Source of the DNA: Chitinophaga deserti
GTDB taxonomy: Bacteria; Bacteroidota; Bacteroidia; Chitinophagales; Chitinophagaceae
NCBI RefSeq assembly: GCF_003149455.1
Contig: NZ_QFFK01000016.1
Location: 1 to 64,000, forward strand
DNA: 64,000 nucleotides
Direction: 5' to 3'
Position 1 is the stretch's first letter. The number at the start of each line of letters is the position of its first letter. Positions 10,143 through 62,561 of this stretch are shown here, one piece after another. The position numbers and the translations under genes were made by a program. The notes beneath the pieces are model-generated. The model was not told where the DNA came from and searched no databases. It worked only from the letters and a program-made list of their open reading frames with translations.

Positions 10143-10595
10143 AGTGTAGTTTGCTTCTAATAACAGTGTACTTACCGGAATGTTTAGGGAATGCGTAGGG
10201 AATGAAAAGAGTATGTCTAGCCTATATCTAGCCTCTTATAAGGTCTAGACATAGGCTAAATATAGGCTAGACAAAGGCTAGATATAGGCTAGATATATCC
10301 GGGATTTCCCGGCAATTGCAAGCAGGTTACAAGGAGTCTGGGATATGTTAAGCAGGGGGGCTGGCTAAGGGGCCATCGGGAAAAGATATTTTAAAATATT
10401 TATGGGATACGGGGGATGGGGTGATTGGTTATGAAAACGGCACAACTCATCATTCCACACTGCATTTGATTCAGTTAAACATATATTTATAATAATATAT
10501 TAAGCTAATAATCAATGCGTTCGCTGTGCAGGATATTTTGAAATATAAGAATTAACCATATATTTACACCGCGGTTTAACCTATACCGCTAACCT
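10143..10595. other. Intergenic, A/T-rich, holds an 11-bp repeat array
   Basis: 453 bp between divergent genes. Apart from the repeat array at 10216-10292 it contains A/T tracts near 10475-10570. TATATTTA at about 10559-10566, close to the TAnnTTTG consensus, could serve the rightward gene. No small gene is evident. Confidence 0.5.
10216..10292. repeat. Seven 11-bp units in exact phase, first two inverted
   Basis: Units start at 10216, 10227, 10238, 10249, 10260, 10271 and 10282. The rightward units read ACATAGGCTAA, ATATAGGCTAG, ACAAAGGCTAG and ATATAGGCTAG; the first two (TCTAGCCTATA, TCTAGCCTCTT) are the same unit on the other strand; the third (ATAAGGTCTAG) is a degenerate junction. The period of 11 is close to one DNA turn, so every copy faces the same side. 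Confidence 0.75.
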
Positions 10596-59713: not shown

Positions 59714-61351
59714 ATGGATTTACAGCAACTGGAATTCAACAGGAACGAAGATCAACTGAAAATGCTGGTCAGCGCCATGAAGCAAAAGCTGGCCGTGATA
59801 GAACAGGGGGGCGGAAAGAAAGCCCTCGAGAAAGTGCGCCAGCGCGGCAAACTCACCCCTCGCGAAAGAATCGCCAAACTCATTGATAAAGACAGTACCT
59901 TCCTTGAACTGGGCGCTTTCACTGCCTACGAAATGTATGCGGAACATGGCGGTTGTCCTGCCGGCGGCACCGTTGCAGGCCTCGCACACGTCAGTGGCCG
60001 CCTCTGCATGATCGTGGCCAACGATATGACCGTGAAAGCAGGCGCCTGGTTCCCGCTCACCGGCAAAAAGAATCTCCGCATGCAGGAGATCGCCATGGAA
60101 AACAAACTGCCCGTTATTTACCTCGTAGACTCCGCCGGTGTTTACCTCCCGCTGCAGGACGAGATTTTTCCCGATAAAGAACACTTCGGCCGCATCTTCC
60201 GCAACAATGCCAAAATGAGCGCCATGGGCATCACCCAGATAGCCGCCGTAATGGGCAGCTGCGTGGCCGGTGGGGCTTACCTACCCATTATGAGCGACGA
60301 AGTGCTCATGGTAGAAGGCAACGGCTCCATTTTCCTGGCAGGGCCTTACCTCGTAAAAGCCGCCATAGGAGAGGACGTGGACGCGGAAACCCTCGGCGGC
60401 GCCGTTACCCATACCGAAATATCGGGCATCGCGGATTATAAGTTCAAAACCGATGAAGAATGCCTGGAACGCATCCGCCACATCGTTTCCATGATCGGGA
60501 AGCCCGCCACTGCAGGGTTCGACCGTATCGCCGCTACGGAACCCGCTAAAAGCGACGAAGAAATCTATGGCATCATTCCAACCGACAGCTCCAAATCCTA
60601 CGATGTCCGTGAAGTGATCCACCGGATGGTGGACGGTTCGGTGTTCGAAGAATATAAAGAAGACTACGGCAAAACCATCCTCTGCGGATACGCCCGCATA
60701 GAAGGCTGGGCAGTTGGCATCGTAGCCAACCAGCGCAAAATGGTGAAAAGCAAAAAAGGCGAAATGCAGATGGGCGGAGTGATCTACAACGATTCTGCCG
60801 ATAAGGCCGCCCGCTTCATCATGAACTGCAACCAGAAAAAGATCCCCCTTATTTTCCTGCAGGATGTAACCGGCTTTATGGTGGGCAGCCGCTCGGAGCA
60901 TGCCGGTATCATTAAAGACGGCGCCAAACTCGTAAATGCCGTGAGCAACAGCGTGGTGCCCAAGATTACCGTGATCATCGGCAACTCTTACGGAGCAGGC
61001 AACTACGCCATGTGTGGCAAAGCCTACGATCCCCGGTTCATCTTCGCCTGGCCCAATGCCAAAATCGCGGTAATGGGAGGCGAACAGGCCGCTAAAACGC
61101 TGCTGCAGATACAGGTGGCCTCCCTTAAAGCCAAAGGCGAAGAAATCACCCCGGAAGCCGAAGCAAAGCTATTGAAGGATATCACTGACCGGTATAACAG
61201 TCAGACTACCCCTTACTACGCCGCCGCACGCCTCTGGGTAGATGAGATCATCGATCCCCGTAACACCCGCCAAACCATCGCCCGCTGCCTGGAAGCGGCG
61301 AACCTTGCCCCGGTGGAAGAAACATTTAAAACCGGGGTCATCCAGGTGTAA
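59714..61351 (+). CDS. Acyl-CoA carboxylase beta subunit
   Basis: 545 residues, carboxyltransferase subunit of the PccB/MccB family. Opens with ERNEDQL-like helices and KLTPRERIAKLIDKDSTFLELG, then GGCPAGGTVAGLAHV, GSCVAGGAYLP and the second half NSYGAGNYAMCGKAYDPRF. The GVYLPLQDEIFPDKEHFGRIF segment is typical of the methylcrotonyl-CoA type. It carboxylates an acyl-CoA with a biotin subunit that is not encoded next to it. Own terminator. Confidence 0.93.
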   Translation: MDLQQLEFNRNEDQLKMLVSAMKQKLAVIEQGGGKKALEKVRQRGKLTPRERIAKLIDKDSTFLELGAFTAYEMYAEHGGCPAGGTVAGLAHVSGRLCMIVANDMTVKAGAWFPLTGKKNLRMQEIAMENKLPVIYLVDSAGVYLPLQDEIFPDKEHFGRIFRNNAKMSAMGITQIAAVMGSCVAGGAYLPIMSDEVLMVEGNGSIFLAGPYLVKAAIGEDVDAETLGGAVTHTEISGIADYKFKTDEECLERIRHIVSMIGKPATAGFDRIAATEPAKSDEEIYGIIPTDSSKSYDVREVIHRMVDGSVFEEYKEDYGKTILCGYARIEGWAVGIVANQRKMVKSKKGEMQMGGVIYNDSADKAARFIMNCNQKKIPLIFLQDVTGFMVGSRSEHAGIIKDGAKLVNAVSNSVVPKITVIIGNSYGAGNYAMCGKAYDPRFIFAWPNAKIAVMGGEQAAKTLLQIQVASLKAKGEEITPEAEAKLLKDITDRYNSQTTPYYAAARLWVDEIIDPRNTRQTIARCLEAANLAPVEETFKTGVIQV

Positions 61352-61403: not shown

Positions 61404-61448
61404 CCTGCGGATACCGTTTCCTGAAAAAATGGTATCCGCAGGTGTTTT
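61404..61448 (+). terminator. Strong rho-independent terminator
   Basis: CCTGCGGATACC and GGTATCCGCAGG form a perfect 12-bp stem with a loop of about 16 nt, followed by TGTTTTT. Confidence 0.85.
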
Positions 61449-61467
61449 TGTGCCAGGACGAGGCATG

Positions 61468-61555
61468 GTAACTATATAGTTACTCCACGGTTACTGCATA
61501 ATTACTCCATGGTTACTTCACAGTTACTTCACGGTTACTTCACAGTTACTTCAGG
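61468..61555. repeat. Eight 11-bp units in exact phase, first inverted
   Basis: Units at 61468, 61479, 61490, 61501, 61512, 61523, 61534 and 61545: GTAACTATATA (inverted), GTTACTCCACG, GTTACTGCATA, ATTACTCCATG, GTTACTTCACA, GTTACTTCACG, GTTACTTCACA, GTTACTTCAGG. The first two units together form the perfect palindrome GTAACTATATAGTTAC. The unit sequence differs from the 10.2-kb array but period and layout are the same. Confidence 0.8.
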
Positions 61556-61807
61556 GTTAGTGTACTGGTAATGTACCTTTTCGGCAGTAGATGATTTTAT
61601 AAAAACACAACACCCTCCACAGTAGCGGGTTTCATTAAACAACCGTGAAAATGCATACGGAAAATGGTACACTCTGTACAAAAAAAGGCTAAAAGTGGGA
61701 CACGTAAACCCCTTATTTCCTCAATACCCGTCCGGTTCAGCTTCACGAACCTTTATACCCGGCTGCCGATTCCTTTGAACTGTCTTCCGCCGGATATTAA
61801 CTTATCT

Positions 61808-61862
61808 TACTGTAGGGTTACTGTAACCTTAAAGCATACTTAAAGTAGGGTTAATGTATATA
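61808..61862. repeat. Five 11-bp units in exact phase
   Basis: Units at 61808, 61819, 61830, 61841 and 61852: TACTGTAGGGT, TACTGTAACCT, TAAAGCATACT, TAAAGTAGGGT, TAATGTATATA. All start with TA. A third sequence type with the same 11-bp period. Confidence 0.6.
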
Positions 61863-62060
61863 AAACGTGGTCAAACGCTTTGCAGTAAAGGATAAGGTAC
61901 CATTTCATATACATAACAGTACCACTACTGTATGTACTGCGTATCCCTTGATTATTCCGGCAATTACCCTTAATTTGAACAAAATCAATCATTTAGCATA
62001 CGGAAATGCCCCCGCCGGCAGAAAACTTCGGGGCAAATGGCATACTGCTATAAATTCCTT

Positions 62061-62087: not shown

Positions 62088-62561
62088 TTGACGAACCAGA
62101 CGAACCAGCAACTGATCATATATACGGATGGCGCCGCACGGGGTAACCCGGGAAGGGGAGGATACGGCATCGTGTTGATTTGGGGTAATACCCGCCGCGA
62201 AATGTCGGGCGGCTACCGGATGACCACCAACAACCGCATGGAGCTGCTGGCCGTTATAGTGGCCCTCGAAGCTCTTACACGGGAAGGGCTCCCCATCCAG
62301 ATCTTTACCGACAGCCAGTATATCGTGAACGCCGTTGAAAAGGGCTGGTTATGGAACTGGGTCAAAACCGGGTTTAAAGACAAAAAGAACCGCGACCTCT
62401 GGGAACGCTTCGTTCCCCTCTACCGCAAACACCGCGTTAAATTCAACTGGGTGAAAGGCCATGCCTCCAATCCCGAAAACAACCGCTGCGACGAGCTGGC
62501 CACCGCTGCCGCAGACGGTGGCAATCTCCTTGTGGATGTGGGTTATGAACGCGGCGATTAA
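62088..62561 (+). CDS. rnhA: Ribonuclease HI
   Basis: 157 residues from a TTG start set by the promoter. Cuts RNA in RNA-DNA hybrids using four acidic residues and a His: D14 (YTDGAARGNPG), E52 (NNRMELLA), D75 (FTDSQYI), H125 and D135 (KGHASNPENNRCDE). All present, so active. Standard length. Confidence 0.96.
   Translation: MTNQTNQQLIIYTDGAARGNPGRGGYGIVLIWGNTRREMSGGYRMTTNNRMELLAVIVALEALTREGLPIQIFTDSQYIVNAVEKGWLWNWVKTGFKDKKNRDLWERFVPLYRKHRVKFNWVKGHASNPENNRCDELATAAADGGNLLVDVGYERGD

Follow-up and report, generated by a model that had tools for sequence, protein, structure and literature searches.

The window analysed here is a whole 64,000-nucleotide stretch of Chitinophaga deserti DNA (contig NZ_QFFK01000016.1, positions 1–64,000). 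Towards its right end, a carboxyl transferase gene (Pfam Carboxyl_trans, 59714–61351) and an RNase H gene (62088–62561) lie on the same, forward strand, and the gap between them holds a tandem array of ten 11 bp units of the GTTACTTCACR type (61468–61577, forward strand), which was delimited by row reading, TRF and a shuffle score. With 61468 as the first letter and 11 letters to a row, the units are GTAACTATATA, GTTACTCCACG, GTTACTGCATA, ATTACTCCATG, GTTACTTCACA, GTTACTTCACG, GTTACTTCACA again, GTTACTTCAGG, GTTAGTGTACT and GGTAATGTACC; against the consensus of units 2–8 they match at 6, 10, 8, 8, 10, 11, 10, 10, 7 and 6 of 11 positions, and the best conserved part runs from 61479 to 61555. 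A sequence-only reading had described eight units at exactly 11 bp; the spacing is indeed exact, but ten units can be recognized. At lag 11 the gap scores 38.9, compared with at most 9.1 in 1000 dinucleotide shuffles; in a further 100 shuffles the highest value over periods 5–40 was 12.1. The array is real. TRF scores a 22 bp period higher than the 11 bp period (115 versus 92, with the period-11 call covering 61479–61559) because adjacent units alternate. No Rfam family reached its gathering score in the window between 55000 and 64000.

The sequence-only reading also held that the first unit is inverted and forms a perfect palindrome at the switch. The palindrome is there: the window contains a single perfect 16 bp palindrome, GTAACTATATAGTTAC, and each of 20 shuffles of the window contains between zero and two. 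It does not by itself establish a switch of orientation. The first unit matches at 6/11 positions in the direct orientation and the best inverted placements nearby also reach 6/11, so that the letters alone do not decide between the two; in the homologous array on contig C2, GGCATGG is followed by TTACTACATA and GTTGC, which is a direct first unit (locus L013, read as its reverse complement). The window has GGCATGG, TAACTATATA and GTTAC at the matching place. An inverted start is not supported and was rejected, as was the idea that the array is a hairpin in itself, since its folding z-scores are 0.39 on the forward strand and −1.31 on the reverse strand. The other array in the window, at 10.2 kb (10177–10298), is a true inverted two-arm 11 bp array, with units CTATATCTAGC, a TTATAA centre and units GCTAGATATAG, as seen by TRF, row reading and folding (z = −7.5 for 10211–10298). 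The two arrays, said to share both period and inverted start, have the period in common but not a demonstrated inverted start.

The gap also holds other repeated material. A tail (61578–61706, forward strand) with a short sequence that looks hairpin-like by eye, CACCCTCCACAGTAGCGGGTTT, is shared with an element on contig C3, the homology to which is 80% over 164 bp and includes the last array units, and in part with C2 (85% over 47 bp). A second, weaker 11 bp array follows (61807–61861, forward strand; score 11.1), with units TTACTGTAGGG, TTACTGTAACC, TTAAAGCATAC, TTAAAGTAGGG and TTAATGTATAT; arrays of this type recur in the same genome at L032, L047, L056, L059 and L066. It is followed by a centre of the AAACGCTTTGCAGTAAAGG type (61862–61903), which is conserved among the C-type copies, and by what appears by eye to be a degenerate inverted right arm (61904–61970, reverse strand; compare L056 and L295). 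The whole gap measures 736 bp here and 112 bp in genome G006, which has the best RNase H match among the relatives. It is 1.38 kb in G025 and ∼1 kb in G012, and because the relatives differ among themselves in this way, the site does not give a clean insertion. In G025 the place of the array, flanked by the same two genes, is taken by a 1.2 kb reverse-strand reading frame (L073:147–1331). No period-11 segments were found at 29 other RNase H loci at a threshold of 9 in the fetched flanks, with adjacency to carboxyl transferase checked in six of them. The GTTAC unit has 23 matches in C. deserti and one match each in five of 35 relatives; a backward control likewise gave five relatives with one match each, and dispersal of this unit among the relatives was therefore rejected: it is essentially private to C. 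deserti.

To ask how common such arrays are, 40 stretches of 20 kb were sampled from the genome, of which 32 were kept (640 kb, with 232 intergenic gaps totalling 50.1 kb as defined by mechanical open reading frames); the eight omitted (L036, L038, L040, L044, L045 and L048–L050) were among the first 20 and had been picked for pattern matches. At a threshold of 12, the gaps contain 25 tandem segments at period 11, 16 at 22 and five at 33; over the rest of the range 5–40 there is one segment each at 10, 14, 36 and 38, and none elsewhere. Other arrays thus exist and their period is not random; no further arrays, or arrays of random period, would have spoken against the sequence-only reading. Near-identical 8-mers recur in the intergenic DNA at 91 per 10,000 at lag 11, 72 at lag 22, 27 at lag 33 and 24 at lag 44, against a median of 8.6, while in coding DNA the value at lag 11 is 3.8 and the median 4.0. 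Scaling from 16 array-bearing gaps in 640 kb, we would expect roughly 160 in the 6.33 Mb genome. When the census and the window are combined, 18 of 240 gaps bear an array: 11 of 49 between convergent genes, five of 126 between tandem genes and two of 65 between divergent genes (convergent versus the other gaps, 7/191; Fisher p = 1e-4).

A periodicity of ∼11 bp, of AA/TT, has been reported for bacterial intergenic DNA as a reflection of helical phase (PMC516772; PMC4132750), and such ordinary periodicity might have produced the signal. Here, however, entire 8-mers recur at exactly 11 bp, and when the 21 array-bearing gaps are removed from the 118 gaps of at least 150 bp the per-base lag-11 z-score drops from 7.7 to 1.0; the sampled relatives have values from −0.6 to 2.3. 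With the signal gone once the arrays are taken out, we rejected this explanation and regard it as scarcely credible.

The units in C. deserti fall into unlike families, among them the CCTTCAGTGAT, CTAGATATAGG, GGTTACTTCAC, TTAAAGAAGGG, CAAGTCCACCT and TATGCCTTATC types, and the elements seen are ∼80–300 bp long. Many are two inverted arms about a centre; for the GTTAC array of the window such an inversion is not supported. A common mechanism behind the arrays, as had been suggested, is consistent with one period across unlike units; the inverted start that was to be the second shared trait is not supported for the window array. The arms use a common unit but agree in register only weakly above chance, except for perfect palindromes in the distant congener G007: pooled over 12 arrays there were 321 matches, compared with 296.5 when the unit order was shuffled (11 of 5000 shuffles), with the centre picked to maximize the match and with no register preference in six of the 12. 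Two 1.24 kb duplicates in C. deserti, 95% identical, differ by exactly one 11 bp unit inside the array. These duplicates (L008 on contig C1 and L021 on contig C12) consist of a gene end and the array behind it, and their similarity stops just past the array.

A neutral origin would account for part of this anatomy. Strand slippage together with template switching at hairpins could lengthen short palindromes and repeats in unconstrained gaps, whole units being gained or lost; the single-unit difference between the duplicates, the likeness of adjacent units and the perfect hairpins of G007 are all in keeping with this, and the gaps between convergent genes, where the arrays are enriched, are the least constrained. 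Slippage alone, however, yields no single period, whereas this genome has 11 and its multiples across unlike units, and the weak arm register, absent from half of the arrays tested, also speaks against it. So does family A, in which copies at unrelated sites have a common 16 bp centre and left end, with a right arm of variable length. We consider neutral birth improbable. In C. pinensis isolate 3 (L262 and L263), another copy seems to begin after a family-A right arm, which would place the elements in tandem.

Family A also bears on the possibility that the inverted arrays act as RNA, forming transcript hairpins (terminators or stabilizers) in which 11 bp would be one turn of A-form RNA. In its alignment 96.1% of the cells pair and 39 cells are changed on both sides, compared with 12.0 in shuffles; the 10.2 kb array folds well (as above) and G007 has an array, L140, with a z-score of −15. 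Against this, further pair types number 14 versus 14.5, no excess, and a single set of 12 sequences, changed at each of three equivalent columns, accounts for 36 of the 39 double changes, so that few events are involved. These 12 of the 39 aligned copies have CAG/CTG in place of CGG/CCG, on the two arms alike and throughout the three paired units. The window array forms no hairpin, and by eye ordinary terminators stand beside several arrays. An RNA function is very improbable.

Random stretches of the relatives contain few such arrays. At a threshold of 12, ∼100 kb each of G025, G033, G001, G014, G030, G037 and G042 gave no period-11 segments. G003 gave one in 200 kb, together with three at period 21, and G012 none in 200 kb; since family A is nevertheless common in these two genomes, the strong 11 bp signal is mainly that of C. 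deserti. In G003 a 21 bp short-gap repeat and a longer repeat of 60-odd base pairs, of the AAAGCTCCTTCCGAACGAG type (L210:3739–3920), are unlike the 11 bp arrays and may be coding. In 320 kb of G007 there are three segments at period 11, two at 7, three at 14 and one each at 22 and 28; its 11 bp arrays are inverted, with units unlike those of C. deserti.

Array stretches are missing from the orthologous gaps of relatives. At L043, ∼305–313 bp holding the entire element are missing in G025 and G006. At L058, ∼326 query bases are missing in G025 and ∼373 in G006, both of which are compact, and by eye the orthologous place in G003 has an unlike 11 bp array, AAGTCCAAGGT six times over. The gap at L295 is 234 bp in C. 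deserti and 4 bp in G025, and in G003 and G012 the genes overlap; there (L295:2122–2355) a C-type two-arm element stands between two convergent genes, one of them for a CarH-like regulator, and separates their ends. Besides the orthologous flanks, the L043 element region has at least 22 matches in G003, nine in G012, four in G006 and one in G032. Its core, GGTTTGAGGGTGTTTNACYGAAGG, has 38 exact copies, all in Chitinophaga, in a contig collection that possibly does not include the records of C. deserti itself: 18 in C. barathri, eight in C. alhagiae, ten in C. pinensis isolate 3 and two in Chitinophaga sp. E66. For 34 of the 36 copies in the three species with at least eight, the nearest neighbour is from the same species (0/2 in E66). 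One family has multiplied within species; together with the missing stretches at orthologous gaps and the one-unit difference between the duplicates, this makes the elements look young and dispersed. Carriage as plasmid or phage cargo was rejected on one query each: window positions 61440–61720 matched no plasmid sequence and L043:11000–11172 no phage sequence.

Arrays of this kind could instead be immobile sites of the host, bound at 11 bp per protomer by head-to-tail regulators or nucleoid proteins and serving as operators or, between convergent genes, as topology sites or insulators. There are precedents: CarH binds tandem 11 bp direct repeats on one face of the DNA (PMC9304148), and ParR of plasmid R1 requires at least two 11 bp repeats (PMC9426499). 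The enrichment between convergent genes and the identical unit change in both arms of 12 family-A copies would also suit a bound site. CarH operators resemble the arrays in being tandem 11 bp direct repeats, but they are described as three to five repeats with TnnACA at carotenoid promoters (PMC9304148), whereas the 11 bp arrays are genome-wide and lie mostly past gene ends. A search of the 232 gaps for tandem runs of nnnnTnnACAn, three units or longer, gave no strict and one relaxed run; the window array has two strict, non-adjacent units and one relaxed run of three. A putative B12-binding regulator gene of CarH-like length is present in array-free genomes as well, and at seven loci its upstream side holds no array apart from a two-unit segment in G025. 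A CarH operator was therefore rejected. The R1 centromere parC, with its 11 bp direct repeats, is located beside parM (PMC9426499); the window array adjoins Carboxyl_trans and RNase_H genes instead, and neither parM nor parR was found among its neighbours. More generally, several unlike unit families would demand several proteins, and the positions of the arrays are not conserved between species. We regard host binding sites as unlikely, although they carry more weight than the neutral and RNA explanations.

The reading that we prefer, while placing it somewhat short of an even chance, is that the window array belongs to one copy of a set of REP/MITE-like mobile elements of Chitinophaga, the units of which are one-turn sites for a protein bound head to tail. 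The class itself has a fixed 11 bp period, family-specific units, a dyad arrangement, a preference for gaps between convergent genes, recent spread and change by whole units; from these traits we infer that the elements are mobile and that a protein dictates the ruler. Like MITEs, the elements are dispersed, multicopy, non-coding and missing at orthologous sites. They would spread as non-autonomous mobile DNA, and the 11 bp ruler would correspond to one turn of DNA per protomer, with the protein lying on one face. This putative protein might be a transposase or an accessory factor; related versions of differing specificity would give rise to the unlike unit families, and the number of units would shift by slippage or by recombination between units. 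The Y1_Tnp search described below, the CarH tests and a Pfam-type scan of array neighbours gave no candidate transposase or array-binding protein. In that scan, which covered ten array-neighbour genes besides the neighbours of both window arrays, the ten contained no regulator or transposase family, and the flanking genes were rejected as a clue. By eye, no target-site duplication or terminal inverted repeats were seen at L043, L058 and L295; the copies that were compared do not have a fully conserved pair of ends, and an unsystematic look came across no autonomous copy.

A bolder form of the mobile-element reading is possible but doubtful in our estimation: that this is an unrecognized class of mobile or self-organizing intergenic elements of Chitinophaga in which the 11 bp ruler and dyad symmetry are the sole conserved grammar and the unit sequence is left free, with a maker or reader that holds to one helical turn but changes its sequence specificity from family to family and from species to species. 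To our knowledge, known bacterial repeats conserve sequence, and a fixed period with free sequence is unusual among classes of intergenic element. With natural arrays that vary in unit and in number, one can test which factor binds or copies DNA by the single turn, and in Chitinophaga the elements have probably contributed to the recent lengthening of gaps between convergent genes. Our literature search found no publication on such elements in this genus, which is not a claim that none is in print.

Two known systems come near to the 11 bp elements. REPs and BIMEs are palindromic, extragenic and multicopy, and are often found past gene ends and between convergent genes (PMC3733652), and in all of these respects the 11 bp elements are alike. 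REPs are, however, 20–40 bp long, with a GTAG or CGTC tag, and those with GTAG accompany a Y1 transposase; the CGTC type lacks a known dedicated transposase and was reported in Bacteroidetes (PMC3733652). Our elements are longer (∼80–300 bp). Among 11 Chitinophaga genomes only G001 matched Y1_Tnp (PF01797), with no match in C. deserti, G003, G012, G006 or G007, and a REP/RAYT system was rejected on the grounds that C. deserti has no such transposase. The other system is the BrickBuilt MITE of Porphyromonas gingivalis, a member of the same phylum as Chitinophaga. BrickBuilt is intergenic, dispersed in 19 forms in one genome, limited to its species and built on a tandem minisatellite (PMC4596501), and the 11 bp elements share the intergenic location, the dispersal, the species-limited range and the tandem repeats. 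It differs in having a 23 bp unit, a single repeat family and a leader and tail with terminal inverted repeats (PMC4596501), whereas the 11 bp elements have 11 bp units, several families and two inverted arms, with no terminal repeats found. In the literature seen, REPs, CarH operators and R1 parC have single traits in common with the 11 bp elements, and BrickBuilt is the closest known system.
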